From assembly GCF_900108065.1 (NCBI RefSeq), contig NZ_FNVQ01000005.1, positions 186,001 through 250,000 of the forward strand: DNA of 64,000 bases. The letters run 5' to 3'. A model generated the notes under the pieces. The model was not told the DNA's origin. It ran no database searches and saw only the letters and a program-made list of their open reading frames with translations. Positions within the stretch are counted from its first letter, which is position 1. Each line of letters opens with the position of its first letter. The DNA is from Marinobacterium lutimaris. GTDB lineage: Bacteria > Pseudomonadota > Gammaproteobacteria > Pseudomonadales > Balneatricaceae. The position numbers and the translations under genes are program-made. Below, piece by piece: positions 44,647 to 64,000 of this stretch.

Positions 44647-46254
44647 ATGTCCACTCAGGAATACGACTACATTATCGCGGGTGCGGGCTCTGCAGGCTGT
44701 GCCGTCGCCTACCGCCTGATTGAAAACGGAGCAGGAAGCGTGCTGTTGCTAGAGGCCGGTGAAAAGGACTCCAGCATGTTTCACAAGATCCCGGCCACGG
44801 TGGTCAAGGTGTTCCAGCAGAAGTCCTGGCCCTATATGACCCTGCCGCAGAAGCATGCCAACAACCGCTCCATGCTGATCGCCCAGGGCAAGGTGCTCGG
44901 CGGCGGCAGCTCGGTAAACGGCATGATCTACATCCGCGGCCAGCACCAGGACTATGACGACTGGAAAGAGAAATGGGGCTGCGAAGGCTGGGGCTACGAA
45001 GACGTACTGCCCTTCTTCCGCAAGGCGGAAGCCAACGAAAGCCTCGGCGACCGCTACCACGGTGAAGAGGGCCCTGTGCCGGTGGGCGAAAACCGCTTCC
45101 GTCATCCGCTGACCCAGGCCTGTATCCGTGCCTGTGCACAGATGGGTCTGCCTTATACCAACGACTTTAATGGTGCGACCCAGGAGGGCGCGGGCTTCTA
45201 CCAGACCACCATCCACAAGGGTGAGCGCGCCAGCACCTCGCAGACCTACCTGAAACGCGTGGCCGGCAACCCTAAACTCACCGTGCTGACCCACGCCCTG
45301 GTGCACCGGGTGGATATCGACGGCAAACGCGCCAGCGGCGTCACCTACTCCATCAAGGGCGGCGCTCCGATCACTGCAAAGGCGCGCAAGGAAGTGATCG
45401 TCAGCTCCGGCACCTTCGGCTCCGCCAAGATCCTGATGCTCTCCGGTATCGGCCCCAAGGAGCACCTGGAGTCGGTGGGCGTCAAAACCAAGCTGGACCT
45501 GCCGGTGGGCAAGAATTTCCACGACCACCTGCACATGTCACTGAACGCCACTATCAATGAAGATATCAGCCTGTTTCAGGAAGATAAGGGCATCAGCGCC
45601 GTCAAGCATATGCTGCAGTGGCAGATGTTCCGCTCCGGTCTGATGACCAGCAACATCCTCGAGGGCGGCGCCTTTGTCGACAGCGAGGGCGTGGGACGTC
45701 CCGATATCCAGCTGCACTTCCTGCCGCTGCTGGATAACTTCGACAACACCCCGGGTGAAAAACCGGAAGCGGAAGCCCACGGTGTCTCGATCAAGGTGGG
45801 CCATCTGCGCTCCAAATCCCGCGGCGAAGTGCGCCTGAAAAGCAGCGATCCTAACGAACTGGTCGAGATCGACGCCAACTTCCTCTCCAAACCGGAAGAC
45901 CTGGAAAACCAGATCCGCGCCGTCCAGACCGGACTCAAGGTGCTGGAGATGCCATCCCTGAAACGGATCGTCAAACGCGTCATCGAGCCCGACAACATCG
46001 CCATCGATGACAAACAGGGCCTCGAGGCGTTCGTACGCGAGAACATCAAGACCGTCTACCACCCGGGCGGCACCTGCAAGCTGGGCACCTCCACCGAGGA
46101 TTCCGTGGTGGACCTACAGCTGCGCGTTCACGGTGTGGATAACCTGCGCGTGGTGGATATGTCGATCTGCCCGCAGGTCCCCAGCGGCAACACCAACGCC
46201 GTGGCGATGATGATCGGCGAGCGCGGCGCCGACCTGATTCTGCAGGCCCAGTAA
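44647..46254 (+). CDS. GMC-family alcohol dehydrogenase (choline dehydrogenase/AlkJ-like)
   Basis: A 535-residue FAD enzyme of the GMC superfamily. The FAD-binding motif is IIAGAGSAGCAVAYRL, the GMC block GKVLGGGSSVNGM follows, and the catalytic His is in VYHPGGTCKLG with the C-terminal Asn in GNTNAVAMM. It oxidises primary alcohols to aldehydes. The ATG at 44647 has GAGGGA upstream; the long frame from 44596 is rejected. It lies 49 bp before an aldehyde dehydrogenase, so the pair would take an alcohol to an acid. The substrate is unproven. Confidence 0.88.
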   Translation: MSTQEYDYIIAGAGSAGCAVAYRLIENGAGSVLLLEAGEKDSSMFHKIPATVVKVFQQKSWPYMTLPQKHANNRSMLIAQGKVLGGGSSVNGMIYIRGQHQDYDDWKEKWGCEGWGYEDVLPFFRKAEANESLGDRYHGEEGPVPVGENRFRHPLTQACIRACAQMGLPYTNDFNGATQEGAGFYQTTIHKGERASTSQTYLKRVAGNPKLTVLTHALVHRVDIDGKRASGVTYSIKGGAPITAKARKEVIVSSGTFGSAKILMLSGIGPKEHLESVGVKTKLDLPVGKNFHDHLHMSLNATINEDISLFQEDKGISAVKHMLQWQMFRSGLMTSNILEGGAFVDSEGVGRPDIQLHFLPLLDNFDNTPGEKPEAEAHGVSIKVGHLRSKSRGEVRLKSSDPNELVEIDANFLSKPEDLENQIRAVQTGLKVLEMPSLKRIVKRVIEPDNIAIDDKQGLEAFVRENIKTVYHPGGTCKLGTSTEDSVVDLQLRVHGVDNLRVVDMSICPQVPSGNTNAVAMMIGERGADLILQAQ

Positions 46255-46303
46255 TCGCTCCGGTTCAAACTAATAAGCAACGATTTCGAGAGAGAAAACC
46301 CAT

Positions 46304-47791
46304 ATGTCACAGATAGAGATTCTCGACAGCGTCAAAGCCTACCTGCAGCGTGAGCACGGACAGTTCATCGCCGGGGAAGCCAGCCGCGCCAGCGACACCG
46401 CTAAAATCGACCTGATCGACCCCGCTACCGAACAGCCTCTGGCCCAGGTGGCCAGCGCCAGTACAGCGGAACTGGATGCCGCCGTGGCCAGCGCCAAACG
46501 CGCCTTCAAGGGCGAATGGGCGCAGAAAACTCCGTACGAGCGCGGCCAGCTGATCAACCGCTTTGCCGATCTGATCGAAGCCAACGGCGAAGAGCTGGCC
46601 CAGCTCGAAACCCTCTGCAGCGGCAAATCGATCCACCTGTCGCGCATGCTGGAAGTGCAACAGAGTGCTCAGTCGCTGCGCTACTACGCTGGCTGGGCCA
46701 CCAAGATCTCCGGTGAAACCCTGACTCCCTCCTTCCCGTCGATGCAGGGCGAGCGCTACAGCGCCATGACCCGTCGCGAACCGGTGGGCGTGGTCGCCGG
46801 CATCATCCCCTGGAACTTCTCGGTGATGATCGCCAACTGGAAAATCGGCGCAGCGCTGGCCACCGGCTGCACCATCGTCCTCAAACCCAGCGAGTTCACC
46901 CCGCTGACGCTGCTGCGCCTGGCCGAGCTCGCGATTGAGGCAGGCATCCCCGCCGGGGTGATCAACGTGCTCAACGGCGAAGGCGCTATCGGCCAGCAGC
47001 TGATCGAACACCCGGATGTCGCCAAGGTCTCCTTCACCGGCTCCGTGCCCACCGGCATGAAAGTGGGTCAGACCGCCATGGCGGCCAACCTGACCCGCTG
47101 CACCCTGGAGCTGGGCGGCAAGAACGCCGCGGCACTGCTCGCCGATGCGGATATCGACCGCGCCGTCGGCGGTCTGCTGCAGACCGGCTATGTGCACCAG
47201 GGCCAGGTCTGTGCCGCTCCAGAACGTGTCTTTGTGCATCGCTCCCGCATCGATGAACTGACCAGCAAGCTGGCCGCGGGCCTCAGCCAGGCGAAGATCG
47301 GCTCACCGCTGGACGAGTCGGTGATGTTCGGCCCGATCTCCAACAAGCCGCAGTTCGACAAGGTCTGCCATTACCTGGAACAGGCGAAGCGTGAAAGCCG
47401 CATCGTCTGTGGCGGTAACGCCCTGGATCGTGCCGGCTACTTCGTCGAACCCACCATCGTGCAGGCCAGCTCCGCCAGCGAAACGCTGATGCGGGAAGAG
47501 ACCTTTGGCCCGGTAATCTCGTTCATGCCCTACGATGATGAGAGCGAGCTTTTGGGCCTGATCAACGACTCCCCGTTTGGCCTCAGCGCCAGCGTCTGGA
47601 CCAACGACCTGAGCAAGGCGATGCGGATGATTCCGGAGATCGAAGCCGGCACCGTCTGGGTCAACATGCACACCTTCGTCGATCCCTCCGTGCCGTTCGG
47701 CGGCCTGAAAAGCTCCGGCCTCGGCCGTGAGTTCGGCAGCGCCTTTATCGAGGACTACACCGAGCTGAAATCGGTGATGCTCTGCTACTGA
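46304..47791 (+). CDS. NAD-dependent aldehyde dehydrogenase (phenylacetaldehyde dehydrogenase-like)
   Basis: A 495-residue aldehyde dehydrogenase. The catalytic Glu is in LELGGKN and the nucleophile Cys in GQVCAAPERV, spaced as expected. The PWNF and FTGSVPTGMKVG NAD-binding segments are typical. Resembles phenylacetaldehyde/betaine aldehyde dehydrogenases (FeaB-like). Beside an AraC regulator of the FeaR type it is probably inducible. In this locus it could oxidise indole-3-acetaldehyde or phenylacetaldehyde, an inference from context. Confidence 0.88.
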   Translation: MSQIEILDSVKAYLQREHGQFIAGEASRASDTAKIDLIDPATEQPLAQVASASTAELDAAVASAKRAFKGEWAQKTPYERGQLINRFADLIEANGEELAQLETLCSGKSIHLSRMLEVQQSAQSLRYYAGWATKISGETLTPSFPSMQGERYSAMTRREPVGVVAGIIPWNFSVMIANWKIGAALATGCTIVLKPSEFTPLTLLRLAELAIEAGIPAGVINVLNGEGAIGQQLIEHPDVAKVSFTGSVPTGMKVGQTAMAANLTRCTLELGGKNAAALLADADIDRAVGGLLQTGYVHQGQVCAAPERVFVHRSRIDELTSKLAAGLSQAKIGSPLDESVMFGPISNKPQFDKVCHYLEQAKRESRIVCGGNALDRAGYFVEPTIVQASSASETLMREETFGPVISFMPYDDESELLGLINDSPFGLSASVWTNDLSKAMRMIPEIEAGTVWVNMHTFVDPSVPFGGLKSSGLGREFGSAFIEDYTELKSVMLCY

Positions 47792-47954: not shown

Positions 47955-48866
47955 ATGTCGATCAATACTGATCTCCATCAGTGGGACCACGCTGTACGCG
48001 AGATCTGCGGTGAGTTCACCACCACTCCCAATCCTTGCGCGCCGTTTATCGGCCAGATCAAGCTGAAAAACCTCGGCGGCCTCGGCGTTGCCCACATACA
48101 AACCAACGCCCAGCGCGTAGAACGCCGCATCAGCGACACCCAGAACGACGAACACTGCTTCTTAATCCTTCAAACTCAAGGGGTTATGGGGTTCGATAAC
48201 AAGCAGAATACGGAGTTCGATCTGCACCCCGGCGAGATGGCGCTCACCGACTCACGTCTGGCCTTCGACATGATCCCCCGCGGCCTGGTACGCCAGATAT
48301 CGGTTCACCTTTCCCGCGACCGACTGCAGCAAAGCCTCGGCAAGATTCCCCACTTCGGCAAGATCTCCCAGAACAGTCTCAGCGGTCAGTTACTGCACAC
48401 TATGCTGCTGCAATTAAGCTTCGAAAATGCACCATTTAGTGCGAGCACGCCTGATGGCTGTGCACTTCAGGAAGCGATTACTGCGCTACTGAAACCGGCG
48501 CTGGAAAACCAGGATGTAGAAGCAGCGGATCTGCCGCTGAGACTGCTGGCGGAGCGCTTTATCCGTCGCTATCTCAATGACTATCGCCTGTCACCGGAGT
48601 TTCTCGCCAGGGAGCTGAACATCTCCAAGCGCAAGCTTTACCGGGCATTTGAACATAACGGGGAAAGTGTGGCGCGCTACATTCTCAACCTGAGACTGGA
48701 GCAGAGCAGAATGGACCTGGTCAGGGCCGACCAGGAGCAGCAGACCATTACGGATATTGCGTTTAAGTGGGGGTTTTCGGATGTGTCCCAGTACTCCCGG
48801 GCGTTCAAACGCCAGACAGGGCTTTCACCCAGCGAGTACCGCCAATCACACGAGTGCCGGCTCTGA
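47955..48866 (+). CDS. AraC-family transcriptional regulator (FeaR-like)
   Basis: A 303-residue regulator with an N-terminal AraC-binding-like domain and a C-terminal AraC HTH (about 200-300). LARELNISKRKLYRAFEHNG and ITDIAFKWGFSDVSQYSRAFKRQTG carry the two helix-turn-helix motifs. Resembles FeaR, which activates the aromatic-amine-derived aldehyde oxidation genes. GGGAG lies upstream of the ATG. Located just after the aldehyde dehydrogenase, so it probably regulates the alcohol/aldehyde pair and perhaps the neighbouring amidase. Confidence 0.9.
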   Translation: MSINTDLHQWDHAVREICGEFTTTPNPCAPFIGQIKLKNLGGLGVAHIQTNAQRVERRISDTQNDEHCFLILQTQGVMGFDNKQNTEFDLHPGEMALTDSRLAFDMIPRGLVRQISVHLSRDRLQQSLGKIPHFGKISQNSLSGQLLHTMLLQLSFENAPFSASTPDGCALQEAITALLKPALENQDVEAADLPLRLLAERFIRRYLNDYRLSPEFLARELNISKRKLYRAFEHNGESVARYILNLRLEQSRMDLVRADQEQQTITDIAFKWGFSDVSQYSRAFKRQTGLSPSEYRQSHECRL

Positions 48867-48901: not shown

Positions 48902-50215
48902 TCAGGCTGAGGCCAAAGCCCCCTCGAACCAGCGCGCCAGCGCCAGCAGACTATCATCATCATGGGCGCGACCAACCAGCTGCACACCCAGTGGCAGCCC
49001 TGCTTCATCGACCAGACCCGGCAATGAAATCACCGGTAGCCCCATCGCCTGCCAGGGGCGACTCATATGCGGCGCACCGGTCTTTTCATGCCCCAGGGGC
49101 GCCACACCGGGCGCGGCCGGCGCCAGGATCGCATCCACATCCGCATAGCGCTGCCAGAGCGCTTCGCCACCGACGGCCGCCGCGTTCAGGGATTCCAGAT
49201 AAGCAGCACGCTCCATCACCAGGCCTGAGCTGATCAGATCCTGCAGCGGCTCGCTGAGCAGTTCTGGCTGGCGGGATTCCACCGCCAGGTTGCGGGCGAC
49301 TTCGTAACCCATGATCTGAATGTGGTGCTGCACCATCTGGGGCAGAAACTCCTCATCCTCGAACTGCACCAGCTCGACGCCCTGCCCTTCCAGCAGTGCC
49401 GCGGCCTGATTGATCGCTTCAACCATGGCAGGATCGGTTTCACCGACTTTATCGCCCTGACAGATCAGCACCTTGCGGGGCTTCACCGCATCGGCCTGCG
49501 CCAGCGGGTCGTTCTGGCGCAGCAGAATGGCGCGCATCAGCTCGATATCCTCAACCGAACGCGACAGCAGTCCGAGGGAGTCCAGCGATTGCGCCAGCGG
49601 CTGGCCGCCGCGCAGGGAGAACTCGCCTCGGCTACCCACATAACCGACGCTGCCGCAGTAAGCCGCCGGACGAATCACCGACGCCGCCGTCTGGGAACCC
49701 AGCGCCAGCGGCACCATGGCATCGGCCACCGCGGCGGCGGAGCCGCTGGAAGAACCACCGGGCGTGCGCTCTAGATCCGCAGGGTTCCTGGTTTTACCGG
49801 GCTTGAAGTAGGCAAACTCGGTGGTGACGGTTTTTCCGAGCACTATGCCGCCGGCCGCACGGATCAGAGCGACGCAGCTGGCGTCATCCACAGGCATGCG
49901 GCCCTTGTGGATAGGCGAGCCCATCTCGGTGGGCATATCCGCCGTATCGATGATGTCCTTGATCCCCACCGGCAGACCTTTCAGCGGGCTCTGCCGATAA
50001 AACGCCTCGTTACTCAGATACTGATCGAGAAACGCCTCGCGGCTCAGGCTGTATTGCCAGGCACCGACTTGCGGCTCGCGCGCCTCGATACGGTCAAAGC
50101 AGGCATTAATCACATCAACGGCCGTGCACTCGCCGTTATCGATCGCCAGCAACGCCTGACGCAGGCCAAGTTCGTTCAACGCTTTTGCGTCAGGGTTGGG
50201 TTTAGGAGTAGTCAT
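48902..50215 (-). CDS. Amidase-signature-family hydrolase
   Basis: A 437-residue amidase-signature enzyme. The catalytic Lys86 is in GIKDIID, the cis-Ser in TPGGSSSGS, and the Ser nucleophile in GSQTAASVIRPA. The more common GTDTGGS nucleophile block is varied to GSQTAAS. The ATG at 50215 with GAAGG upstream is favoured. Hydrolyses a carboxamide to a carboxylate plus ammonia. Next to the iac locus, indole-3-acetamide to IAA is plausible; a mandelamide hydrolase-like role is the other reading because of its neighbour. It is probably in an operon with the oxidase upstream (81-bp gap). Confidence 0.85.
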   Translation of the reverse strand: MTTPKPNPDAKALNELGLRQALLAIDNGECTAVDVINACFDRIEAREPQVGAWQYSLSREAFLDQYLSNEAFYRQSPLKGLPVGIKDIIDTADMPTEMGSPIHKGRMPVDDASCVALIRAAGGIVLGKTVTTEFAYFKPGKTRNPADLERTPGGSSSGSAAAVADAMVPLALGSQTAASVIRPAAYCGSVGYVGSRGEFSLRGGQPLAQSLDSLGLLSRSVEDIELMRAILLRQNDPLAQADAVKPRKVLICQGDKVGETDPAMVEAINQAAALLEGQGVELVQFEDEEFLPQMVQHHIQIMGYEVARNLAVESRQPELLSEPLQDLISSGLVMERAAYLESLNAAAVGGEALWQRYADVDAILAPAAPGVAPLGHEKTGAPHMSRPWQAMGLPVISLPGLVDEAGLPLGVQLVGRAHDDDSLLALARWFEGALASA

Positions 50216-50296
50216 AATCACCTTCTCATTAAAGCTCGGCGGCCCCGGCGCTATCAGTCCGTGCGGAGCCTGTTCAATTCGTTGCCGGGAAACACC

Positions 50297-51487
50297 TCAG
50301 GGGCACGGGGTATATTGCTCGTCCAGCAGCCACTCGGGCCCCAGCTCATCGATACCCGGACAGCCCATCAGATTGAGGCAGCGCTTGAGTTCCTCATCGA
50401 GGATATCCAGCACACGGCCCGCCCCCTGAGTGCCGCCGGCAGCGACGCCATAGAGCGTGGAGCGACCCAGCAGCACGCCGTTGGCGCCCAGCGCCAGCGC
50501 CTTGACCACATCGGAGCCGCGGCGGATACCGCTATCCATCAACAGCTCTATACGCCCGCTCACCTGTTCGGCGATCCGCGCCAACGCCTGCAGGCCGGAC
50601 ATGGCGCCATCCAGCTGACGCCCACCATGGTTGGTCACCACCAGCGCATCAACGCCAAGGCTGATGGCCCGCTCGGCATCGTCGGGATGCAATACGCCCT
50701 TGAGCACCAGCCTGCCGGACCATTGATCGCGGATCCGCGCCAGCTTGTCCCAGTCGAGCAGCGGGTCCATCTGGTCACCGATAAACTTCATCGCGCCGAG
50801 CGCGCTGCGTTCCGACTCGGGGAGATAGGGTTCCAGGTTGCCCATCATCGGCACACCGGAGGGGATCATCACCCGACGCAGCCAGCCGGGATGGCGCAGC
50901 ACGTCGAGCTTGTTGCGAAAACTGAGCTGACGGGGCCGGGCAAAGTTGCGCCGGTCCCATTCACGGTTACCCAGCACCGTGGCATCGCTGGTCACCAGCA
51001 GCGCCGCGGCATCAACCGCCTGGGCGCGTTTGATCATATCCACCTGCACGCGGCTGTCGCGCATGGGATAAAGCTGAAACCAGAACGCCAGATCCGGCGC
51101 TGCGGCACGCACCTGCTCCATGGTGGCGTTGGATACAGTACTAAGAGCCAGAGGAATCCCCTTGCGGGCAGCCGCTTTGGCCAGCTCGATATCCGCCTGT
51201 GGATAAAGCATGCCGTTAAAGCCGGTGGGCGCGATCGCCAGGGGCAGCGACGATGAGCAACCCAGCAGCTGCCGGGAAACCGCCGGCGGATGGCAGGGCT
51301 GCAGGGTCTTGGCCTCAAGTCCGTAGCGATCAAAGACGCTGCGGTTAGCGGCCAGCGTGACCTCGTTGTCGGCGCCTCCCGCCAGGTACTCCCAGGCGAA
51401 ATGCGGCAGCTTATGCCTGGCCAGTGCAGCCATCTCCGCCACGCTCTGAATCCGCTCCATGTTGCTGCCGCGATAGAATCGACGCAT
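50297..51487 (-). CDS. FMN-dependent alpha-hydroxy-acid dehydrogenase (mandelate/lactate family)
   Basis: A 396-residue FMN enzyme of the lactate/(S)-mandelate dehydrogenase family. The TIM-barrel active site is in VTNHGGRQLDG (catalytic His), and FMN contacts include APTGFNGM and the DSGIRRGSDV segment. Oxidises an alpha-hydroxy acid to a keto acid. ACAGGAG precedes the ATG. The natural substrate could be mandelate, lactate or an indolic hydroxy acid. Operon with the downstream amidase is supported by the short gap. Confidence 0.87.
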   Translation of the reverse strand: MRRFYRGSNMERIQSVAEMAALARHKLPHFAWEYLAGGADNEVTLAANRSVFDRYGLEAKTLQPCHPPAVSRQLLGCSSSLPLAIAPTGFNGMLYPQADIELAKAAARKGIPLALSTVSNATMEQVRAAAPDLAFWFQLYPMRDSRVQVDMIKRAQAVDAAALLVTSDATVLGNREWDRRNFARPRQLSFRNKLDVLRHPGWLRRVMIPSGVPMMGNLEPYLPESERSALGAMKFIGDQMDPLLDWDKLARIRDQWSGRLVLKGVLHPDDAERAISLGVDALVVTNHGGRQLDGAMSGLQALARIAEQVSGRIELLMDSGIRRGSDVVKALALGANGVLLGRSTLYGVAAGGTQGAGRVLDILDEELKRCLNLMGCPGIDELGPEWLLDEQYTPCP

Positions 51488-51511: not shown

Positions 51512-51535
51512 AAAAAGGGAGAGCCGGGCTCTCCC
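51512..51535 (-). terminator. Terminator after the OprD porin
   Basis: On the minus strand GGGAGAGC and GCTCTCCC form a perfect 8-bp stem with a 3-nt loop, followed by TTTTTGCG. A second hairpin GGGCCGG/CCGGCCC (51652-51676) lies between the porin stop and this one. The terminator separates the porin transcript from the oxidase. Confidence 0.88.
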
Positions 51536-54604: not shown

Positions 54605-54645
54605 CGTATCTCTCCACCCGACACCCTTGGTCGGCACATCCAGCG

Positions 54646-55457: not shown

Positions 55458-55467
55458 GGGCGACCTC

Positions 55468-55950
55468 TTAGAAAATGAAGCTGACGGTACGCAGGAAGCC
55501 ATCGGCGTGAAGCAGCTTCACCACCTTGCGGTCCAGCTTGAAGCCGCCATCGACCGGCTTCAGGGTGTACTCCACGTTGGCCGGGTAGGTCACCAGCTTG
55601 CCGTGGCGCAGCTCGTTCAGCGTCATGGCGCAGCGGGCGATCACGACATCATCGCCGGCTTCCAGCACGCGGATACGGGACATCATGCGCACGGTGTAAC
55701 CCACGGAGTTGGCGGAAACGGACTCGCCGTTTTCCAGACGTGCTACGCGCATGCGGCGCATGTCGGCGTCATCCAGCGCCAGATTCACGGTGTTCAGGTA
55801 ATCGGTTTCATCCAGGTCTGTGGGCACGATGTACAGCCCCTTCTCGGTCCACAGAGACAGCCAGTCCTGGTAGCCCTTGTGATCCAGCAGGTCCGCTTCG
55901 TAACCGATAAATTCGGTGACCTGGGCGAGCAGTTGGGTATTGGATTTCAT
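55468..55950 (-). CDS. iacD: Aromatic-ring-hydroxylating dioxygenase beta subunit, IacD type
   Basis: A 160-residue small subunit of a Rieske non-haem-iron oxygenase, NTF2-like fold. YEADLLDHKGYQDWLSLW is the family start and VMMSRIRV-type motifs follow. It has no cofactor and stabilises the alpha subunit trimer. It lies 2 bp after iacC, ensuring stoichiometric translation. Confidence 0.87.
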   Translation of the reverse strand: MKSNTQLLAQVTEFIGYEADLLDHKGYQDWLSLWTEKGLYIVPTDLDETDYLNTVNLALDDADMRRMRVARLENGESVSANSVGYTVRMMSRIRVLEAGDDVVIARCAMTLNELRHGKLVTYPANVEYTLKPVDGGFKLDRKVVKLLHADGFLRTVSFIF

Positions 55951-55952
55951 GC

Positions 55953-57272
55953 TTACTTCTCCTCGGCGTTGGCTGCGGCGGACATCACCTGCTTGTATTT
56001 GCGGTAGGCGCCGCGCATACCGGTTTCGGAACAGACCGCACCCTGGGGGTTGCCGTCTTCCGAGGTGCGCAGTTTGGTCATACCGCGGTTCACCAGGATC
56101 CAGCCGTCTTCGCCAGCCATGGAGCCTTTCTGCACACGTTCCCAGGCCTCACCGTCATCCGGCGTACCGAAGCCCATGGGGCCCTGGAAGTGCTCATGCA
56201 GACGCATGCGTTTCTGGTTGAACGCGGACGGCGCACCTTCGCCACCCAGCGCCACGTGCTGGATCTCGGTTTCATTCACGGAGACCGGACGCAGGACACG
56301 GAAGAACGCCATGGAGCAGGAGACGTTAGGGAACAGGTTGAGGTTGAAACCGGTACCGTGAGCCGCACGCACCAGCTTCTTCACTTCGTCTTCGTTTTTG
56401 CCTTCGTCGCGCAGCGCCTGGGCCAGCTCGCTGAAACGCTCCGGGATCGGCTGCTCCAGGTCCGCTTCCAGGTCCACCAGCTGCGGAATCATCACCATGA
56501 CGCTGTGGCCATTGCCCAGATCTTCGACGAAGCCTTCGCCATCGAGGAAGTCGAAGATGTCAGCGGTGGCATCGTCCAGGGAGGTCACGAAGGACTTGTG
56601 CACGATCGGGAAGTGGTAGGCGTCGGTGGTGTTCTCGAGCTGGATCTTCCAGTTGCCCGGGAAGTTGAAACGGTGCTCGCCGAGCACTTTCACCGGGTAG
56701 CCGCCGCCCTGTTTCATAAACAGGTCGATCCACTTCTTGGCGCCGCCGAGGAACTCTTCCAGCGGCTCGATATCGTTGTTGAAGGTGGCGAACACCATGC
56801 CCTGGTAGGATTCCCAGCGCAGGCTCTCCAGCGGCATCTCTTCCTTGTTGAAGACGTTGTCGTACTCTTCCGGCTTCGGCAGCGCACGCAGCGAACCGTC
56901 CAGGCCGTAACCCCAGCCGTGGTAAGGGCAGGTGAAGGCGTTGGTTTTGCCCTTGCGGCCTTCGCAGACGGTGGCGCCACGGTGACGGCAGCGGTTCTGC
57001 AGCACGTGGATGTTCATCTTGCGGTCACGGCTCATGATCACCGGATGACGGCCGATCCAGGCGGTCTTGAAGCTGCCCTTCTCCGGCACTTCGCTTTCGT
57101 GGCCAACAAAAATCCAGTTCTTGTTGAACACCAGGTCCTGCTCTTCCTCGAAGATCTCGGTATCGGAATAGAGAGCTTTTTTAACGCGGCCGTTCTCGTC
57201 ATCAACCATGTCGGCTGCGCGCTGGCCGATGCATACGGCATCGACATCTTTCATATCAATCAGGTCACTCAT
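55953..57272 (-). CDS. iacC: Aromatic-ring-hydroxylating dioxygenase alpha subunit, IacC type
   Basis: A 439-residue catalytic subunit. The Rieske [2Fe-2S] cluster has Cys95/His97 (CRH) and Cys115/His118 (CPYH). The mononuclear iron site is in the C-terminal domain (TTDAYHFPIVH, with a later Asp). In described iac clusters the IacCD oxygenase acts on the hydroxylated/oxidised indole intermediate. It lies 50 bp after iacI, and iacD follows. Confidence 0.9.
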   Translation of the reverse strand: MSDLIDMKDVDAVCIGQRAADMVDDENGRVKKALYSDTEIFEEEQDLVFNKNWIFVGHESEVPEKGSFKTAWIGRHPVIMSRDRKMNIHVLQNRCRHRGATVCEGRKGKTNAFTCPYHGWGYGLDGSLRALPKPEEYDNVFNKEEMPLESLRWESYQGMVFATFNNDIEPLEEFLGGAKKWIDLFMKQGGGYPVKVLGEHRFNFPGNWKIQLENTTDAYHFPIVHKSFVTSLDDATADIFDFLDGEGFVEDLGNGHSVMVMIPQLVDLEADLEQPIPERFSELAQALRDEGKNEDEVKKLVRAAHGTGFNLNLFPNVSCSMAFFRVLRPVSVNETEIQHVALGGEGAPSAFNQKRMRLHEHFQGPMGFGTPDDGEAWERVQKGSMAGEDGWILVNRGMTKLRTSEDGNPQGAVCSETGMRGAYRKYKQVMSAAANAEEK

Positions 57273-57322: not shown

Positions 57323-57862
57323 CTACTTTTCCGGCACCGGCAGGTGCGCTTCACTGTTCCAGTGATCCACCGGGCGACTGAACAGGTTTTCGGTCTGAAA
57401 GTGCGCCATGCGCCAGCGCAGCCCTTGCGGCCCCTGCTCTCTGCGGAAATCGATCTCCAGCCGCGCGCTGTTCAGGTGCGAACCACCGGCACTGAAGGTG
57501 GACACCTGCAGCATGTTCCAGCTGCCGTGGGCCGAATCGCCCTCTACCCGGATCACTTCGGAGCTCAGGTAGTGGACGTTCACCGCGAAGTGGGCGGGCT
57601 CAACGCAGTACTTGCCCAGCATCGCCACGATCGCGTCACGTCCCTTATGCCCACCAAAGCTGTTGGCGTAACGGGCGCCCTTGCCTTCCCACACCGCGTC
57701 TTCGGTGAACAGGTCACCTAGCTCATCCATCGGTGTGCTGGCGTCCAGGTGATCGCACAGATCCATGTAGCGATTGATGCAGCGGCGGATCGCGTTTTCG
57801 CTTTCCAGTGCATCCACTCGCTCAAGCACGGCACTCAGGCTGGCGGTATCGACTTCACTCAT
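57323..57862 (-). CDS. iacI: SnoaL/NTF2-like protein, IacI type
   Basis: A 179-residue protein with an NTF2-like cone fold (DLFTEDAVWEGKG; hydrophobic core). This family includes small-subunit-like proteins and isomerase/hydrolase enzymes. In described iac operons it is called IacI and has no clear biochemical role. Together with IacB it is one of the least characterised parts of the operon. Confidence 0.75.
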   Translation of the reverse strand: MSEVDTASLSAVLERVDALESENAIRRCINRYMDLCDHLDASTPMDELGDLFTEDAVWEGKGARYANSFGGHKGRDAIVAMLGKYCVEPAHFAVNVHYLSSEVIRVEGDSAHGSWNMLQVSTFSAGGSHLNSARLEIDFRREQGPQGLRWRMAHFQTENLFSRPVDHWNSEAHLPVPEK

Positions 57863-57873: not shown

Positions 57874-58236
57874 TCAGGCGCGCTGCACGATCAGTTCACG
57901 GCCGATGCGGGCTTCCACCTTGGCGTAGCGCCACAGTTTGTAAGGGGTTTCACCCACGGCGGTGCTGCGGAAAAGGTTGCAGCAGGCACAGACGGTGTCA
58001 TAGTCGGCCACATCGGCCAGCAGGTAGGTGGTCCAGGGATAGCCGGGGGACGGACCGACCATGCTCTGGTCGTCATCCATGTTGCCGATCACGCTGACAC
58101 CTTCCATGTCGTGAATGCCGTTCCACATTTCGCCAAAGGCGGCCCAGACATCGAGCTGCTCTTCGCGGGGAGCGTCCATGAAGTTCTGGTTGATGCCCAT
58201 GCAGAACAGGACTCGCAGGGGTTTCTTCTCGCTCAT
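57874..58236 (-). CDS. iacB: IacB-like conserved protein of unclear function
   Basis: A 120-residue protein without signal peptide or membrane segment. It begins with a hydrophobic strand (LRVLFCMGINQN), has an acidic central part and a CACC cysteine pair near residue 85 (YDTVCACCNLFR). Position between iacA and iacI matches the iac operon gene iacB, whose reaction is not securely assigned. The ferredoxin-like (dimeric alpha-beta barrel) pattern is a guess from strand-helix alternation. Confidence 0.7.
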   Translation of the reverse strand: MSEKKPLRVLFCMGINQNFMDAPREEQLDVWAAFGEMWNGIHDMEGVSVIGNMDDDQSMVGPSPGYPWTTYLLADVADYDTVCACCNLFRSTAVGETPYKLWRYAKVEARIGRELIVQRA

Positions 58237-58272: not shown

Positions 58273-59415
58273 TTAGAGGTAACCGGGCAGCGGATCGTGG
58301 CCAAAGAACATGGCACCGGCATTTTTCAGCGTGATGCGGCCCATAAAGGCGTGCTGGGTCACCATGCTTGAGTCGCGCAGAATGCGGGACAGCGGATGGC
58401 TGCTGAAGGCGCCGGTCATGCCGGTGACCTCGTAGGTGAGTCGAATCGCCTCGGCACACTCGTGCGCCAGGTTGGTGGTCGCCAGACGCACCAGGTTGGT
58501 CTGTTCGGGGGTCGGTTTGCCGCCGGCCAGCACCGCTTCCCAGGCTTCTTCGGTGGCCTGATAGAAGAAGGCGCGGGAGGAGCGCAGCTTGGCTTCCGCC
58601 TGGGCGATCTCGATCTGCGCGTACTCTCGCTCACCCAGGTTGGGCGCACCGGTTACCGATTTGCGGCCAGCCGCTTCGCCCTGGACCACATCCAGCGCTT
58701 CACGAGCCAGGCCCGCCGCGGTAATCGCCAGTACCTGAGCCGCGAAGGAGAGGCTCGGGTAACGGAAGAAATCGGAATCCAGGTTGGGCTCGCCGCCGCG
58801 GATAAAGGTCCACTCTTCCGGCACGAACTGGTTATCCACAACCAGATCGTGGGAGCCGGTACCGACCATGCCGATCACGTCCCAGTTGGGTTTGATGCTG
58901 ACCTTTTCGGCCGGCAGCACCGCCATGCGCGGCAGCTTCTCATTGTCGTCTTTAATGCCGACGCCGATCAGCGATGCGCCCATGCTGCCGCTGCCAAACT
59001 TCCAGGTACCGCTGACCATGAAGCCGCCTTCAACGCGCTCCGCCCTCTGCGGCGGGAAGATCCCGCCGGCAAAGACCACGTCCGGACCGTTGGCCCAAAC
59101 CTTGTCGATGGTTTCTACCGGCAGAGCCGCCAGGTAGGCCGGGTTCATACCAAAGCTGGCCACCCAGCCGGCGGAGCCGTCCGCTGCAGCAATCGCTTCG
59201 ACCATCTGCAGAAACTCCATCGGGCTACGCTCATCACCGCCCAACGCTTTCGGAACCATGGCGCGATATACACCGATCTTCCGGAAACGTTCGATGATAT
59301 CCTGGGAAATGTGCTGCTGATCCTCAAACTCCTGACGGCGCTTACGCACCTCTGCAAGCAGGTCATCGAACTCTGATCCACCCCAGAGCGATTTATCGAT
59401 CTGATATCCAGACAT
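58273..59415 (-). CDS. iacA: Indole-3-acetate monooxygenase, IacA type (acyl-CoA dehydrogenase fold)
   Basis: A 380-residue flavin monooxygenase with the acyl-CoA dehydrogenase fold. Helical N-terminal domain, beta domain (GGFMVSGTWKFGSGSMGASL) and C-terminal helical domain are visible. IacA oxidises IAA (and indole) in the first step of aerobic IAA catabolism, using reduced flavin from IacG. The start at 59415 (MSGYQIDKSLWGG) is chosen; the frame extends to 59499. It lies 16 bp after iacH and 36 bp before iacB. Confidence 0.87.
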   Translation of the reverse strand: MSGYQIDKSLWGGSEFDDLLAEVRKRRQEFEDQQHISQDIIERFRKIGVYRAMVPKALGGDERSPMEFLQMVEAIAAADGSAGWVASFGMNPAYLAALPVETIDKVWANGPDVVFAGGIFPPQRAERVEGGFMVSGTWKFGSGSMGASLIGVGIKDDNEKLPRMAVLPAEKVSIKPNWDVIGMVGTGSHDLVVDNQFVPEEWTFIRGGEPNLDSDFFRYPSLSFAAQVLAITAAGLAREALDVVQGEAAGRKSVTGAPNLGEREYAQIEIAQAEAKLRSSRAFFYQATEEAWEAVLAGGKPTPEQTNLVRLATTNLAHECAEAIRLTYEVTGMTGAFSSHPLSRILRDSSMVTQHAFMGRITLKNAGAMFFGHDPLPGYL

Positions 59416-59431: not shown

Positions 59432-60580
59432 TTACTCAACTTCTGCTCTGGTGCTGATCCGGCTGGCAATTGCAGACGCCACTGCACACAGCAGTTCATC
59501 GGCGCCGCGTGCCGCTACCAGCTGAAGACCCACGGGCAAACCCGCAGCGCTGACCAGAGGAATGGTGATGGCCGGATGGCCGCTAAGGTTGAAAGGTCGA
59601 ACAAACCGGGTCATACCCAGCAGTGCGCGGGTATCACCCGCTTCAGAAAGAGGTGCCGGATAATCCGGCATGGTCGGTAGCGCCAGCACTTCACAGCACT
59701 CCAGTGCGGCATCCACCTCGGCGGTAAACACTTGGCGTAACGCTTCGGCCTGCTCCAGTTCGGCGTCGGTTGTCTGGCTGGCCGCCAACAGACGCTGAGC
59801 CACATCCTCACCGACAAGACCCGTGCCGACCCAGTCGCCACTGGCGACCCAGGACTCGCGATTGATCACCGTCATACCCGCATCGTAAGCCGCGACCATA
59901 TTCGGAAGATCAACGCTTTTAGCGCGCATTTCGCTACCTGAAAGTGCATTTTCAACAACCGCTTTCACCTCCGGGTTGATCTCTTCGGCGGCGATATTGA
60001 CGACTCCTATGCGGGCATCACTCACATCCGGCAGCTCGGCAAAGTCGCCGCACAGCACCTGCATCACGCTGATAAGCGTGGCCATATCGCGGGCAAACGG
60101 GCCTACGCAATCCAGGCTGGTCTGCGCCGGCATCACGCCTTCGCGGCTGACGCGACCAAAGCTGGGCTTGAGTCCGAAGACACCACAGCAGGCTGCCGGT
60201 GTACGGATGGAGCCACCGGTATCGGTACCGAGCGCCGCCTGACAAAGCCCTGCTGCAACGGCAGCGGCGGAGCCACTGGATGAACCACCCGGTACACGAT
60301 CGGGAAAGCAGGGATTCTCGGGCGTTCCGGTCCAGTGATTGATTCCGGTGGTACCGAAGGCGAGCTCGTGCAGATTGGTCTTGCCGTTGATATGCCAACC
60401 GGCATCCAGCAGGCGATGAACAACCTCAGCATGGGACTGAGCCGGCTCTACCTGCTCCAGCGCCCGGCTTCCAGCACGGGTCTGATAGCCAGCCACATCA
60501 ATGGTGTCTTTCACCATGATGTCTGGACCTTCACTACCCAATGCCAGGGGCTGAATCACGATAGTCATCGACTTACCCAT
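59432..60580 (-). CDS. iacH: Amidase-signature enzyme, IacH type
   Basis: A 382-residue amidase-signature hydrolase, shorter than the usual 450-500. The triad is visible: Lys24 (VKDTID), cis-Ser in GGSSSGS (about 100-102) and Ser124 in GTDTGGS. Described iac clusters carry this gene as iacH; proposed to hydrolyse an amide or lactam intermediate. The ATG at 60580 or 60568 could be the start. It is the first gene of the iac operon, preceded by a regulatory region with a TTGACA promoter. Confidence 0.83.
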   Translation of the reverse strand: MGKSMTIVIQPLALGSEGPDIMVKDTIDVAGYQTRAGSRALEQVEPAQSHAEVVHRLLDAGWHINGKTNLHELAFGTTGINHWTGTPENPCFPDRVPGGSSSGSAAAVAAGLCQAALGTDTGGSIRTPAACCGVFGLKPSFGRVSREGVMPAQTSLDCVGPFARDMATLISVMQVLCGDFAELPDVSDARIGVVNIAAEEINPEVKAVVENALSGSEMRAKSVDLPNMVAAYDAGMTVINRESWVASGDWVGTGLVGEDVAQRLLAASQTTDAELEQAEALRQVFTAEVDAALECCEVLALPTMPDYPAPLSEAGDTRALLGMTRFVRPFNLSGHPAITIPLVSAAGLPVGLQLVAARGADELLCAVASAIASRISTRAEVE

Positions 60581-60654
60581 AACTAGAATCTCGATTTAAA
60601 AGTCTCTGTATAAGAGGCTTTTTCGGTGACGCAAGATGCTGCGCTCTTTTTTCT

Positions 60655-60683
60655 AAAATCCTAATTATTAATTGAATTGTCAA
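60655..60683 (-). promoter_or_regulatory. Candidate iacH promoter with TTGACA
   Basis: On the minus strand, TTGACA (60678-60683) is a perfect -35 element, with a weak -10 (GATTTT, 60655-60660) at 17-bp spacing. It is about 75 bp upstream of iacH. Confidence 0.5.
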
Positions 60684-60693
60684 TTGATTAATT
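60667..60693. promoter_or_regulatory. AT-rich dyad overlapping the iac promoter
   Basis: AATTG-T-CAATT (60675-60685) is a perfect palindrome, flanked by near-symmetric ATTAATT/TTAATT arms that extend it imperfectly to 60667-60693. It covers the -35 box, a typical repressor position for MarR-type regulators. The regulator is not in the window. Confidence 0.45.
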
Positions 60694-61117
60694 CAAAAAA
60701 ATAAAAGCCTCTTTTCAGTGCAAAAAAACGCAATACGCTCGCTATTGGTGCGCACGCCATACACCTTAAAAACTCATACAAAAAAATATAACTTATTGTT
60801 TTATATGGTTTTAATTTTCATTACCAGAATAGCCACTCGAAATTCAAAAGAGATAGAAAGGCAAAGATCACCGTAGATAAAACCTAAGAAAAGACCGTTT
60901 TTTTAGACCGATAAAAAGAACTTTTTTGACGTTTAAAAAACTTCACCAGGAAACAAAAACCCAACAAAAAACCCGAGCGCAAGTAGGTTGATTTTTCAAT
61001 GAAAAAGGGAAGTTTTCGGTGTGACAAAATCGCAAAATCCGGCCCCCTCCAGGAAACCTTTACAAGCACATTTCAGGGCCGGAAACGATGATCCAGATCT
61101 GGTGCAGACGGCATTTC

Positions 61118-61133
61118 TGGCACGCCCCCTGCT
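61118..61133 (+). promoter_or_regulatory. Sigma-54 (RpoN) promoter, -24/-12
   Basis: TGGCACG-CCCC-CTGCT has the invariant GG at -24 and GC at -12 with exactly 10 bp between, one mismatch from TGGCACG-N4-TTGCW. Transcription would begin near 61144, 74 bp upstream of the binding-protein ATG. A palindrome CCAGATCTGG (61093-61102) with an adjoining GGTGCA lies just upstream. Confidence 0.7.
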
Positions 61134-61217
61134 AAGTCATTGACGTCAGGCACGAAAACAGGCCGGACCAAAACACCCCAGACCAAAACACCTATGTTTT
61201 ACCCCCTGGAGACCGTC

Positions 61218-62363
61218 ATGCTGTTGAAGAAATCCCTTTCTGCTCTACTGCTAGGCTCTGCATTGACTGCTACAGCCGCCCAGGCCGAGGTCAAAATCGG
61301 CGTTGTCACCTCTTCCACCGGCCCGATCGCCATGGTTGGCACGTCACAGAAGAACTCCATCCCGTTGCTGCCTGCCAGCGCCGGCGGTGAAACCATCCGC
61401 TACATCTCACTGGACGACAGCAGCGACCCGACCGAATCGGTCAAGGCGTTCAAAAAGCTGATCGACGAAGAGCATGTGGATGCGATCATCGGCCCCAGCG
61501 GTTCCGCCAACGCCATGGGGGTTATCCAGTTCGCCGCTGAATCCGGCACCCCGATGCTGGCGCCGGTAGGCAGCGCCGCCGTGGTACTGCCGATGACCGA
61601 ACAGAAAAAATGGGTTTTCAAAACAACACAGAACGATGACCTGATCGCCAAGGCGCTGGTTGACGACATGGCCGCAAAAGGGATTAAAACCCTGGGCCTG
61701 ATCGGCACTGCGGATCCTTACGGCGAGAACTGGTCACTGGTTGTCGCCAAGCTCTGCGCAGCTGCTGGCATCAAACTGACCGCCGTGGAACGCTTTCAGC
61801 GTCAGGACACCTCAATTACCGGACAGAGCCTGAAAGTACTGATGGCCAACCCCGATGCCGTGCTGATTGCAGCGCCGGGCAGCTCTTCCGTCCTGCCGCA
61901 GACCACGCTGAAGGACCAGGGTTACCAGGGCCAGATCTACCAGACCCATGGCGCCGCACTGGATCCCTTCCTGAAGCTCGGTGGCAAGGCGGTTGAAGGC
62001 ACCATTCTCGCGGCCAGTCTGATGCTGGTAATCGACGAGGTAGCCGACAGCCCGTCCAAGACCATCGCGGCCGACTACATGCAGCGCTACAACGATAAGT
62101 ACGGCGAAAACCCGGCCACCTTCGGCGCCAATGTTTATGACGCTGGCCTGCTGCTGGAAAACGCTATCCCCGCCGCCCTGGAAAAAGGCACGCCCGGCAG
62201 CGCCGAGTTCCGTAATGCCCTGCGCGACGCTCTGGAGCAGACCAATGAGCTGGCTGCCACTCAGGGTGTTTACAGCATGACACCGGAAGACCACAGCGGC
62301 TTCGATGAGCGTGGCCGCGAAATGATCACCGTGCAGGATGGCAGCTGGAAACTGCTGAAGTGA
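61218..62363 (+). CDS. ABC transporter substrate-binding protein (branched-chain amino acid/aromatic acid type)
   Basis: A 381-residue periplasmic protein of the LivK/type I family with a signal peptide (MLLKKSLSALLLGSALTATAAQA). The mature protein begins EVKIGVVTSSTGP, characteristic of the family. The start at 61218 has GGAG upstream; the frame opens at 61140 but that leaves a non-signal N terminus. Divergent from the iac operon and under a sigma-54-type promoter. IAA or another aromatic acid is the likely ligand by context only; members of the family also bind amino acids. Confidence 0.87.
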   Translation: MLLKKSLSALLLGSALTATAAQAEVKIGVVTSSTGPIAMVGTSQKNSIPLLPASAGGETIRYISLDDSSDPTESVKAFKKLIDEEHVDAIIGPSGSANAMGVIQFAAESGTPMLAPVGSAAVVLPMTEQKKWVFKTTQNDDLIAKALVDDMAAKGIKTLGLIGTADPYGENWSLVVAKLCAAAGIKLTAVERFQRQDTSITGQSLKVLMANPDAVLIAAPGSSSVLPQTTLKDQGYQGQIYQTHGAALDPFLKLGGKAVEGTILAASLMLVIDEVADSPSKTIAADYMQRYNDKYGENPATFGANVYDAGLLLENAIPAALEKGTPGSAEFRNALRDALEQTNELAATQGVYSMTPEDHSGFDERGREMITVQDGSWKLLK

Positions 62364-62413: not shown

Positions 62414-62521
62414 GATTTATTCATTAGATCCATCTCTTAGCCCAACACTTGCCGAACACAGGAAAGCGGCTCAGCCTGCTCCGAGCTCGCTGCCCTGCCG
62501 GTACTGAAGGACAGAAACACG

Positions 62522-63565
62522 ATGAACTTCCAGATAGCCGTGCTGCTTGGTCAGGACGGCGTGACCAACGGCGCGATCTACGCTCTGCTAGCCCTATCGA
62601 TACTGCTGGTGTTTACCGTCACCCGCATCCTGCTGATCCCCCTGGGTGAGTTCGTCACCTACGGCGCCCTGACCATGGCGGCGATCCAGTCCGGGGAGCC
62701 GACCGCGCTGGTATGGTTACTGTTGGCATTGATGCTGATCGACTGCGCGCTGGATCTGCGCCTGCTGGTGCAAAACGGCTTCAGTGCGCACAGGGCACGC
62801 TGGATAGGACTCAAACTGGGCTATGCCGTGCTGATGTGCGTGCTGATCCAGACCCTGCCGCTGGCAGATATCCCGATGTTTGCGCAGGTGCTGCTGACGC
62901 TGGGCCTGCTGGTGCCGCTGGGTCCGATCATCTACCGTCTGTTCTTCCAGCCCATCGCTTCCGCGTCGTCGCTGGTACTGATGATCGTGTCTATCGCGGT
63001 GCACGTAGCCATGGTCGGTATCGGCCTGCTGCTGTTCGGACCCGAGGGCGCGCGTACCCAGCCGTTTTCGGATACCGGTTTCAGCCTCGGGCCGGTGATG
63101 CTGAAAAGCCAGACCTTGTGGGTCATCCTGGTTTCCGTGGCGCTGATCGTCATGCTGTTTATCGCCTTTGAACGCACCCTTTATGGCAAAGCGCTGCGCG
63201 CGACCGCGGTTAACCGCATGGGCGCACGCCTGATGGGAATCTCCCCGGTGTTTGCCGGCAAGGCGACCTTCGCCATGGCCACCTTTATCGGCGCCATGTC
63301 CGGCATCCTGATCGCACCGATCACCACGCTCTACTTTGACTCCGGCTTCATCATCAGCCTGAAAGGCTTTGTCGGCGCTATCATCGGCGGCCTGGTGAGC
63401 TATCCGCTGGCGGCGGCCGGAGCTGTGGTTGTGGGACTGATCGAAGCCTTCTCCATGTTCTGGGCCAGCTCCTACAAAGAGATCATCGTGTTCACCCTGA
63501 TTATTCCGTTCCTGCTCTGGCGCTCTCTGACCAGTCACCATGTCGAGGAGGATGAGGAAGAATGA
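62522..63565 (+). CDS. ABC transporter permease, LivH type
   Basis: A 347-residue inner-membrane permease with about eight to nine helices. [20 protein letters not shown] and the cytoplasmic loop [24 protein letters not shown] are the LivH features. Longer than E. coli LivH (308) by an inserted hydrophilic/helix segment around residues 60-105. GAAGGACAG precedes the ATG. The stop overlaps the livM-like start by four bases. Confidence 0.88.
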
Positions 63566-64000
63566 AACCCCGTCACCTGTTAATCGGCTTTATCGTACTG
63601 CTGGCGTTCGCGCCGCTGGTGTTACCCACCTTCCAGATCACACTGCTCAACTACATCGGCCTCTATGCGCTGGTGGTACTGGGCCTGGTACTGCTGACCG
63701 GCGTCGGCGGCATGACCAGTTTCGGCCAGGCCGCGTTCGTCGGTCTCGGTTCCTATACCAGCGCTTACCTGACCACCACCGAGCAACTGCCCACCTGGCT
63801 CGCCTGGGCCAGCGGCTCTCCCTGGCTGTCACTGCTGATCGGCATCCTGCTGACAACCCTGGTGGCGCTGATCCTCGGCGCACTGACGCTGCGTCTGTCC
63901 GGCCACTACCTGCCGCTGGGCACCATCGCCTGGGGCATTTCGCTGTACTACCTGTTCGGTACCCTGGAAGGGCTCGGGGGCCATACCGGGGTCAGTGACC
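63562..64000 (+). CDS. ABC transporter permease, LivM type (3' end outside window)
   Basis: The reading frame is open from the ATG at 63562 through the right edge, 146 codons visible. The N terminus ([24 protein letters not shown]) and the motif [25 protein letters not shown] are diagnostic of LivM. The four-base overlap with the LivH-type gene supports translation coupling. ATPase genes should follow outside the window. Confidence 0.88.

Follow-up and report, generated by a model that had tools for sequence, protein, structure and literature searches.

A FeaR-linked alcohol and aldehyde dehydrogenase arm and a malonamidase-type amidase as possible partners of the iac operon in a Marinobacterium

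What the genes flanking an auxin-degradation operon contribute to the pathway is a question raised by a stretch of 64,000 nucleotides (G000:C14:186001-250000, from a genome of 5.57 Mb in 21 contigs), called here, at its full length, the window. It carries a complete iac set, for the degradation of indole-3-acetic acid (IAA), on the minus strand, running from iacH (60580) to iacG (53114) in the order H-A-B-I-C-D-E-F-G, the same order as in an annotated Acinetobacter record (L123) in which iacB is named. Past iacG the minus strand continues with oprD, a gene for a flavin mononucleotide (FMN)-dependent hydroxy-acid dehydrogenase and an amidase gene (AMD1); then come, on the plus strand, the genes of a GMC oxidoreductase, an aldehyde dehydrogenase (ALDH) and a FeaR-type regulator, and radA (43064-44497) bounds the cluster on the GMC side. 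On the other side the ABC importer genes are divergent from iacH, and beyond the window end (locus L001) lie the genes of a fused LivM-LivG, LivF, a ketopantoate-reductase-like protein, a class II aldolase and a MarR regulator. The host is, to judge from an iacA 99% identical to that of Marinobacterium mangrovicola DSM 27697, a Marinobacterium close to that species.

The original prediction saw in this neighbourhood a possible funnel of indolic compounds into IAA, in which the GMC enzyme and the ALDH could convert tryptophol to IAA, the amidase could release IAA from indole-3-acetamide, and indole-3-lactate could be oxidised to indole-3-pyruvate by the FMN enzyme. The complete operon that it named is there, with iacA, B, C, D, E, F, G, H and I all present together, and Pfam recognises every flanking family on its list in the window; the AraC-family regulator FeaR was not among the genes it named. 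We propose a narrower reading, in which the GMC enzyme, the ALDH and FeaR form an entry arm to IAA, and AMD1 probably stands in for IacH between dioxindole-3-acetic acid (DOAA) and catechol. For the two parts holding jointly we see an even chance. The presence of the genes, their linkage and the replacement pattern of the amidases are observations, and all substrates named below are inferred.

The identity of the amidase comes first. The eight best sequence matches of AMD1 in the Protein Data Bank (PDB) and its eight best fold matches are all chains of malonamidase E2. K87, S156, S180 and R183 of AMD1 align to K62, S131, S155 and R158 of malonamidase E2, for which the PDB titles include the mutants K62A, S131A, S155C and R158Q, and the four residues are invariant in all ten AMD1 copies aligned, as in an amidase of the malonamidase E2 type. 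We take R158 to be the residue that holds the substrate carboxylate. The AlphaFold model of AMD1 is of moderate quality (mean pLDDT 70), and since the stretch 175-214, which holds S180 and R183, falls below 50, the fold ranking alone was used. AMD1 shares its best match in sequence and fold and the equivalents of the four key residues with the Bradyrhizobium japonicum enzyme, but differs from it in length (438 against 412 residues) at an identity of 32-33%, the likeness being known here from sequence and fold. The motif G[ST]QTA[AG]S[VIL]IRPA is present in 27 of 28 distinct AMD1 matches, and GTDTGGS[IV]R in 30 of 31 IacH proteins; each time the exception is a cut fragment.

Against the indoleacetamide hydrolase model PRK07488, which has a cut-off of 532 bits, AMD1 scores 193 and IacH 233 bits. 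With this score, with malonamidase E2 as its nearest relative and with a distribution like that of an IacH replacement, AMD1 is probably not an indole-3-acetamide hydrolase, which speaks against this part of the original prediction. The full funnel can still point to the fact that indoleacetamide hydrolase is the top NCBIfam match of AMD1, though at 193 of 532 bits, and that the FMN enzyme resembles mandelate dehydrogenase. According to the available part of a study of the Iac enzymes, IacA takes indole-3-acetamide and indole-3-lactate, and IacE does not take their products (PMC7225977), so that prior conversion of these compounds to IAA would help. We nevertheless consider the full funnel unlikely, as AMD1 is nearest to malonamidase E2 and complementary to iacH, and the Pfam scan of 19 neighbours (39785-63562) revealed no enzyme of the indole-3-pyruvate decarboxylase type.

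The complementarity was seen among 116 genomes of the family. Twenty-nine have iacA, and 18, all of them iacA-positive, have iacH; in G234 iacH is cut by the contig end. All ten genomes with iacA and without iacH contain AMD1 (at least 66% identity), compared with five of the 18 with iacH (at least 60%), a pattern suggesting that AMD1 probably replaces IacH. Fisher's test, which ignores shared ancestry, gave p = 2.5e-4 without G234 and 1.7e-3 with it. Both states are found within a single genus (g2), where six genomes have AMD1 and no iacH, and G213 has iacH and no AMD1. In 12 further iacA-positive genomes, reached through named loci and searched genome-wide for both genes, AMD1 without iacH was found in G308 (Methylocystaceae, 52%), G309 (Burkholderiaceae, 43%) and G316 (Oceanobacter, 61%), both genes in G305, and iacH only in G306, G307, G310, G311 and G313; three Castellaniella had neither gene, and their loci, as far as covered, show no iacC, D or F. 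The identity of 43% in G309 is no higher than that of a second copy in the window's own genome; in G309, a copy of that identity lies near iac (L012). G125 is another genome without iacH, with AMD1 (65%) adjoining iacG. In a Streptomyces plasmid iacA-B-C-D-E-F-G is followed by an amidase of 42% identity with the motif GSQTAGSLTRP and then by catechol genes, and this is the only annotated amidase of that stretch.

The orthologue cut-offs behind these counts (60% for the amidase and the dehydrogenase, 72% for the aldolase) were set by us from gaps in the match lists, and the genome searches scored a limited number of candidates per genome. Weaker AMD1 matches (36-44%) in G259, G293 and G294 and second copies in G000, G230 and G232 were left out, as were G303 and G304, whose match coordinates coincide with those of G232 and G215 and which thus appear to duplicate these genomes. 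In the iac-positive genomes of order level (G073, G094, G099, G125, G132, G170, G184 and G191) AMD1 was looked for in the stretch around iacA.

Several observations weigh against AMD1 as a stand-in for IacH. Related genomes are not independent in these counts. The window itself holds both iacH and AMD1. In four of the ten genomes without iacH (G214, G037, G215 and G216) AMD1 lies far from iac or on another contig, and G290 and G234 have the dehydrogenase and the aldolase but no amidase match. AMD1 also occurs in six iacA-negative family genomes and is thus not iac-specific. In all six of these (G195, G197, G200, G202, G207 and G291; loci L098-L103) the AMD1-type amidase, of 59-62% identity, clusters with a distant Rieske oxygenase and a ferredoxin reductase, which indicates that this amidase type has other uses; L100, the one of these loci scanned by Pfam, also has genes of an AllG-domain protein, DctM/DctQ and LysR.

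In the scheme that we favour, OprD and the ABC importer would bring in aromatic acids, and the GMC enzyme and the ALDH, with FeaR, would take an aryl-ethanol, most likely tryptophol, through indole-3-acetaldehyde to IAA. IacA and IacG with IacE would make DOAA, and IacC, IacD and IacF, with IacB and IacI, would lead to catechol; these core steps are known from other iac operons and are assigned here by analogy. At the exit, AMD1 would do the job of IacH and hydrolyse an amide made between DOAA and catechol. The chemistry that we prefer would begin with dioxygenation of DOAA at the ring carbons bearing the nitrogen and C3, with loss of the bond to nitrogen, and a retro-aldol cleavage would then free catechol and HOOC-CH2-CO-CONH2, a four-carbon acid amide (oxaloacetate-1-amide or its reduced form). 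This compound resembles malonamate plus one carbonyl, and would suit AMD1. Some members of the class II aldolase fold decarboxylate, and AMD1 might, together with this aldolase, the hydroxy-acid dehydrogenase and the ketopantoate-reductase-like protein, convert the fragment to a central metabolite and ammonia.

This more specific proposal, namely that a four-carbon amide (oxaloacetate-1-amide or malamate) is released, that AMD1 can replace IacH, and that the reductase, the aldolase and the FMN enzyme are a salvage module, is tentative, and we would sooner expect it to fail than to hold. In the available parts of two publications the steps from DOAA to catechol have no agreed intermediates (PMC7225977, PMC9613470). 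A four-carbon amide would be at odds with departure of the side chain as two carbons, and we gave this reading lower odds because isatin was reported after DOAA in the iac-type Pseudomonas LY1, again from the accessible part of the report (PMC8383072). Two alternatives remain: the amidase may open the DOAA lactam first, or the side chain may leave earlier by way of isatin. We set aside a direct retro-aldol reaction in which the aldolase would convert DOAA to isatin, acetate being a poor leaving carbanion, though the reported isatin speaks for keeping this option.

Genes of the suggested salvage module are associated with iac in the family. The FMN dehydrogenase (at least 60%) is found in seven and the aldolase (at least 72%) in eight of the 116 genomes; the seven are all among the eight, and all eight have iacA. 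A block of MarR, aldolase, reductase and ABC genes adjoins iac in six of 18 genome loci, including Rhodocyclales and Xanthobacter, several other loci being too short on that side to judge. The aldolase occurs in seven plasmid records; in five of them (three Acinetobacter and two Thioclava) it shares a block with iac, the remaining two being Novosphingobium, with both genes far apart, and Thalassospira, with no iac nearby. In Thioclava a TRAP importer replaces the ABC genes beside the reductase and aldolase (the second Thioclava was judged by coordinates alone), and one of these plasmids (L125, plasmid p3), with the arrangement iac-TRAP-reductase-aldolase, is from a mangrove soil. NovR is among the matches of the class II aldolase. 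In G208 (L109:5267-10867) MarR-aldolase-reductase genes are divergent from dehydrogenase-AMD1 in a stand-alone arrangement, with iacA on another contig.

It could be argued that the reductase, the aldolase and the FMN enzyme work upstream, where their substrate would be an indolic hydroxy acid taken up by the cell and not a released fragment. They travel with the ABC importer, and in its binding protein three of the five key positions deviate from IadK2, which binds IAA, a hint at another ligand. But Thioclava keeps the reductase-aldolase pair with a TRAP importer instead, and the reductase-aldolase, FMN enzyme and amidase genes of G208 have no importer match in that 20-kb stretch; an upstream role therefore seems to us rather doubtful. 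The nearest solved chains to the FMN dehydrogenase are L-lactate oxidase constructs and (S)-mandelate dehydrogenase, and a role in the oxidation of indole-3-lactate is possible. On the other hand, the dehydrogenase goes with the aldolase in all seven genomes that carry it, and no pyruvate or benzoylformate decarboxylase was found among the 19 neighbours scanned. A mandelate pathway was rejected, as the dehydrogenase type alone speaks for it, and the same 19 genes contain neither a racemase nor a benzoylformate decarboxylase.

The second part of our reading concerns the entry arm. FeaR scores 285 bits against the 199-bit cut-off of its equivalog model, a cut-off passed by all six FeaR proteins scanned. 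The nearest solved chain to the ALDH is phenylacetaldehyde dehydrogenase 4o5h; its best NCBIfam model is StyD (NF045735), at 553 bits below the cut-off of 850, so that it is not StyD by this measure. For the GMC protein the nearest solved chain is choline dehydrogenase, and it stays below the cut-off of both choline dehydrogenase models (PRK02106, 560 of 605 bits; betA, 495 of 732 bits).

The case for the arm comes from its recurrence beside iac. In Oceanobacter kriegii a dehydrogenase, FeaR, an ALDH (65%), a GMC protein (77%) and an amidase (61%) adjoin iac, the GMC gene lying inside the iac block. Two Acinetobacter plasmids (strain NCu2D-2 and A. baumannii DS002) carry iac, OprD, the ABC genes, the reductase, the aldolase and FeaR-GMC-ALDH in one stretch, with GMC proteins of 62-64% identity. 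In A. baumannii X4-300 iac is followed by FeaR, a copper amine oxidase (1494 bits, cut-off 1278), one unassigned open reading frame (ORF) and an ALDH 63% identical to that of the window, the amine oxidase replacing the GMC enzyme. A constant FeaR-ALDH pair with an exchangeable front enzyme is what would be expected if an aryl-acetaldehyde were the meeting point, and the recurrent trio fits, as far as gene content can tell, entry of tryptophol or tryptamine through indole-3-acetaldehyde. In G234 a dehydrogenase, FeaR (60%) and ALDH (85%) lie on a 3.6-kb contig that bears no iac genes. Among plasmid records, the GMC protein (at least 60%) occurs in three of the 86 with a match, twice in an iac cluster; FeaR is present in four, and three of these place it together with iac in one cluster. 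A small tree unites the four GMC proteins linked to iac (90/93) and leaves the Burkholderia copy outside. For the ALDH, the proteins of the window, G234, Oceanobacter, NCu2D-2 and X4-300 form one clade (100/99), which includes a paralogue from the window's own genome, and four ALDH genes near other iac loci (L007, L015, L068 and L084) fall outside it. The available part of one study states that Pseudomonas putida 1290 grows on indole-3-acetaldehyde and does not grow on indole-3-lactate or indole-3-pyruvate (PMC7225977). Of the predicted tryptophol arm, then, the genes and their recurrent linkage to iac stand, joined by FeaR, and the substrates are conjectural.

A good deal can be held against such an arm. 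It is rare even among the iacA-positive family genomes (GMC in at least two and FeaR in three of the 29). In the family the GMC protein exceeds 53% identity, among the matches listed, in the window genome and G232 only; FeaR (E up to 1e-40) occurs in these two and in G234 only, three genomes that are all among the 29. Marinobacterium G235 has iac-OprD-dehydrogenase-amidase abutting radA directly, without the trio, and the Acinetobacter SH20PTE14 plasmid, which has iac, a second malonamidase-type amidase of 49% identity, catechol genes, OprD, ABC genes, reductase and aldolase, gave no match to the trio in the 40-kb stretch covered. The ALDH gene of DS002 is annotated in three pieces and may be broken. 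The third plasmid GMC protein, from Burkholderia cenocepacia (64%), lies away from iac, though the record holds an IacC homologue, and a further GMC-ALDH pair (53 and 54%) is encoded in the window genome at a site apart from iac. The GMC protein scores near the choline dehydrogenase model (560 of 605 bits), and the GMC enzyme and the ALDH could serve phenylethanol. Furthermore, Caballeronia IacA and IacE also oxidise tryptophol itself, according to the part of the study at hand (PMC7225977).

A rival view is that the neighbours serve unrelated substrates (phenylethanol, phenylacetaldehyde, choline or mandelate-type acids) and share with iac no more than a catabolic hot spot by radA. Phenylacetaldehyde is the compound for which FeaR and ALDHs of this type are best known, StyD is the best ALDH model, choline dehydrogenase is the nearest solved GMC protein, and the 64% Burkholderia GMC gene lies away from iac. 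The iac island of P. putida 1290 also holds phenylacetaldehyde genes (PMC6624763). The trio, however, recurs with iac at other sites and on plasmids, and the dehydrogenase (at least 60%) is confined among the 116 genomes to those with iacA (seven of seven), so we find this explanation improbable. That the trio is a random neighbour, as its absence from G235 suggested, was likewise considered and withdrawn in view of Oceanobacter and the Acinetobacter plasmids. The gene order of the window is the same in G232 (M. mangrovicola), and pieces of the cluster recur beside iac in other genera and classes; for these two reasons we regard the linkage as more than chance. The expectation that the flanking genes stay with iac elsewhere was thus borne out for pieces of the cluster, with the GMC trio as an optional part. 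On the far side of radA (39785-43006) are genes of the major facilitator superfamily, of a zinc alcohol dehydrogenase and of a short-chain dehydrogenase/reductase; relatives of these (52-60%) adjoin the 64% GMC gene in B. cenocepacia (L128), and they may once have belonged with the GMC gene.

The ligand of the importer is likely an aromatic acid, as judged from the binding protein, whose nearest solved relatives are 3sg0 and 4dqd, followed by other ligand-binding receptors of the same family. The key residues of IadK2 given in the accessible part of its description are F168, W172, R199, F308 and Y311 (PMC10374108). In 7ylt the corresponding positions, at a constant offset, hold F, W, R, F and Y, for which reason 7ylt was taken as IadK2. 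When the positions are mapped through a Castellaniella relative and 3sg0, R199 and F308 prove to be conserved in the window protein, and T, Y and N stand at positions 168, 172 and 311; with two of five key residues kept, the protein was rejected as an IadK2 orthologue. The genes of the binding protein, LivH and LivM-G (61140-64000; L001:3523-6365) are 79-84% identical to those of M. mangrovicola (L002), compared with 95-100% on the side from iac to AMD1 and 92-96% from LivF to MarR. The lower identity between two more similar flanks suggests local replacement of the importer genes.

It is instructive to compare the locus with systems described previously. The neighbourhood is largely known already from Marinomonas sp. 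NFXS50/MWYL1, where the available part of the report lists iacR, an aldolase, a 2-dehydropantoate 2-reductase, ABC genes, iacABICDEFG, an alpha-hydroxy-acid enzyme and an amidase (PMC11373566), including thus the dehydrogenase and the amidase. The set from iacR to the amidase is shared in nearly the order of the window. The authors call the amidase, 28.6% identical to P. putida IacH, an iacH homologue; in that part of the report the divergent amidase is the only one listed, whereas the window adds a canonical iacH, OprD and FeaR-ALDH-GMC (PMC11373566). In P. putida 1290, too, OprD, an ABC ATPase and phenylacetaldehyde genes lie near the iac core, but the order there is iacABCDEFG-R-HI, and no reductase-aldolase set is mentioned (PMC6624763). 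The Variovorax iad operon shares a related ABC binding protein, IadK2, beside auxin degradation genes, as the available text describes, and differs at the three residues noted above (PMC10374108).

As far as terms occurring in the openly licensed literature can tell, iac has not been paired there with malonamidase, feaR or GMC. What is new, within the literature seen, is the recurrent FeaR-ALDH arm with its GMC enzyme or amine oxidase, the malonamidase-type identity of AMD1 and its complementarity with iacH. In Escherichia coli the FeaR regulator goes with a phenylacetaldehyde dehydrogenase in the FeaR/FeaB/TynA system. The window shares these two components, and the amine-oxidase version is found in an Acinetobacter iac locus; it differs in that an alcohol-oxidising GMC enzyme replaces the amine oxidase and that the arm is joined to iac. 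A second, structurally characterised amidase type in place of IacH points to what form the amidase substrate may have, and a few synthetic amides would be enough to put the step from DOAA to catechol to the test. From the FeaR-ALDH arm, with GMC enzyme or amine oxidase, it would seem that tryptophol and tryptamine, too, are consumed through some chromosomal and plasmid iac clusters, a point of importance for the balance of auxin near roots, algae and marine plants. If true, the release and salvage of a four-carbon amide would close the gap in the carbon and nitrogen accounts of auxin breakdown by bacteria.

Table 1. Features of the iac locus, with coordinates in the window.
Feature	Coordinates	Strand	Basis or remark
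GMC oxidoreductase (proposed tryptophol/aryl-ethanol dehydrogenase)	44644..46254	+	Pfam GMC N and C domains
Aldehyde dehydrogenase, phenylacetaldehyde-dehydrogenase-like (proposed indole-3-acetaldehyde to IAA)	46304..47791	+	Pfam Aldedh
FeaR-type AraC-family regulator	47955..48866	+	NCBIfam PRK09685 FeaR equivalog
AMD1, malonamidase-E2-type amidase (proposed IacH replacement or partner)	48902..50221	-	Nearest solved protein malonamidase E2
FMN-dependent alpha-hydroxy-acid dehydrogenase	50297..51487	-	Pfam FMN_dh
Terminator-like hairpin between oprD and dehydrogenase gene	51517..51535	-	8-pair stem and T run
OprD-family outer-membrane porin	51707..52939	-	Pfam OprD, 352 bits
iacG, flavin reductase	53114..53614	-	Pfam Flavin_Reduct; place in iac order
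iacF, ferredoxin reductase	53645..54637	-	Pfam Fer2
iacE, short-chain dehydrogenase	54705..55502	-	Pfam adh_short
iacD, dioxygenase small subunit	55468..55950	-	46% identity to annotated dioxygenase beta subunit of L123
iacC, Rieske dioxygenase large subunit	55953..57272	-	Pfam Rieske and Ring_hydroxyl_A
iacI, SnoaL-like protein	57323..57862	-	Pfam SnoaL_4
iacB	57874..58236	-	75% identity to L123 gene annotated IacB protein
iacA, flavin monooxygenase, acyl-CoA dehydrogenase fold	about 58273..59415 (ORF open to 59499)	-	Pfam
iacH, canonical amidase	59432..60580	-	Pfam Amidase; motif GTDTGGSIR
AT-rich divergent intergenic region between iacH and ABC importer (likely promoters)	60581..61139	.	Falls in the 2-kb bin with the lowest GC content in the window
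ABC substrate-binding protein (likely start near 61203)	61140..62363	+	Pfam Peripla_BP_6
LivH-type ABC permease	62522..63565	+	Pfam BPD_transp_2
Fused LivM-LivG permease/ATPase, start	63562..64000	+	Continues past the window in L001

The features of the locus are collected in Table 1. For iacB, iacD and iacI no NCBIfam match was obtained at E up to 1e-30, and their assignment is by position and by match to the annotated iac locus L123. The MarR-like gene of L001 adjoins the aldolase gene and scores below every specific NCBIfam cut-off, and its homologues sit beside iacA in relatives; a MarR-type regulator of the IacR kind thus appears to be linked to the operon of the window. Neither the promoter scan of the window nor the number of terminator-like sites in it rose above chance (for the latter, above shuffled sequences).

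Homologues of IacC were found in 30 plasmid records (E up to 1e-100), some of them megabase replicons, which indicates that iac often lies off the main chromosome. The Castellaniella loci L015, L017 and L018, with iacA-B-E-G and no iacC, D or F, encode IadK2-like binding proteins, two of them in tandem in L017 and L018, and look like a different, shorter route of IAA degradation. Elsewhere in the window, consecutive genes at 669-4231 encode a CN_hydrolase-family protein, a ClpX-like AAA ATPase and an FmdA/AmdA formamidase, which looks like an amide-utilisation operon of the amiEB kind. At 32141-35109 a cytochrome c gene adjoins that of a GMC C-domain protein, perhaps a membrane sugar-acid dehydrogenase.

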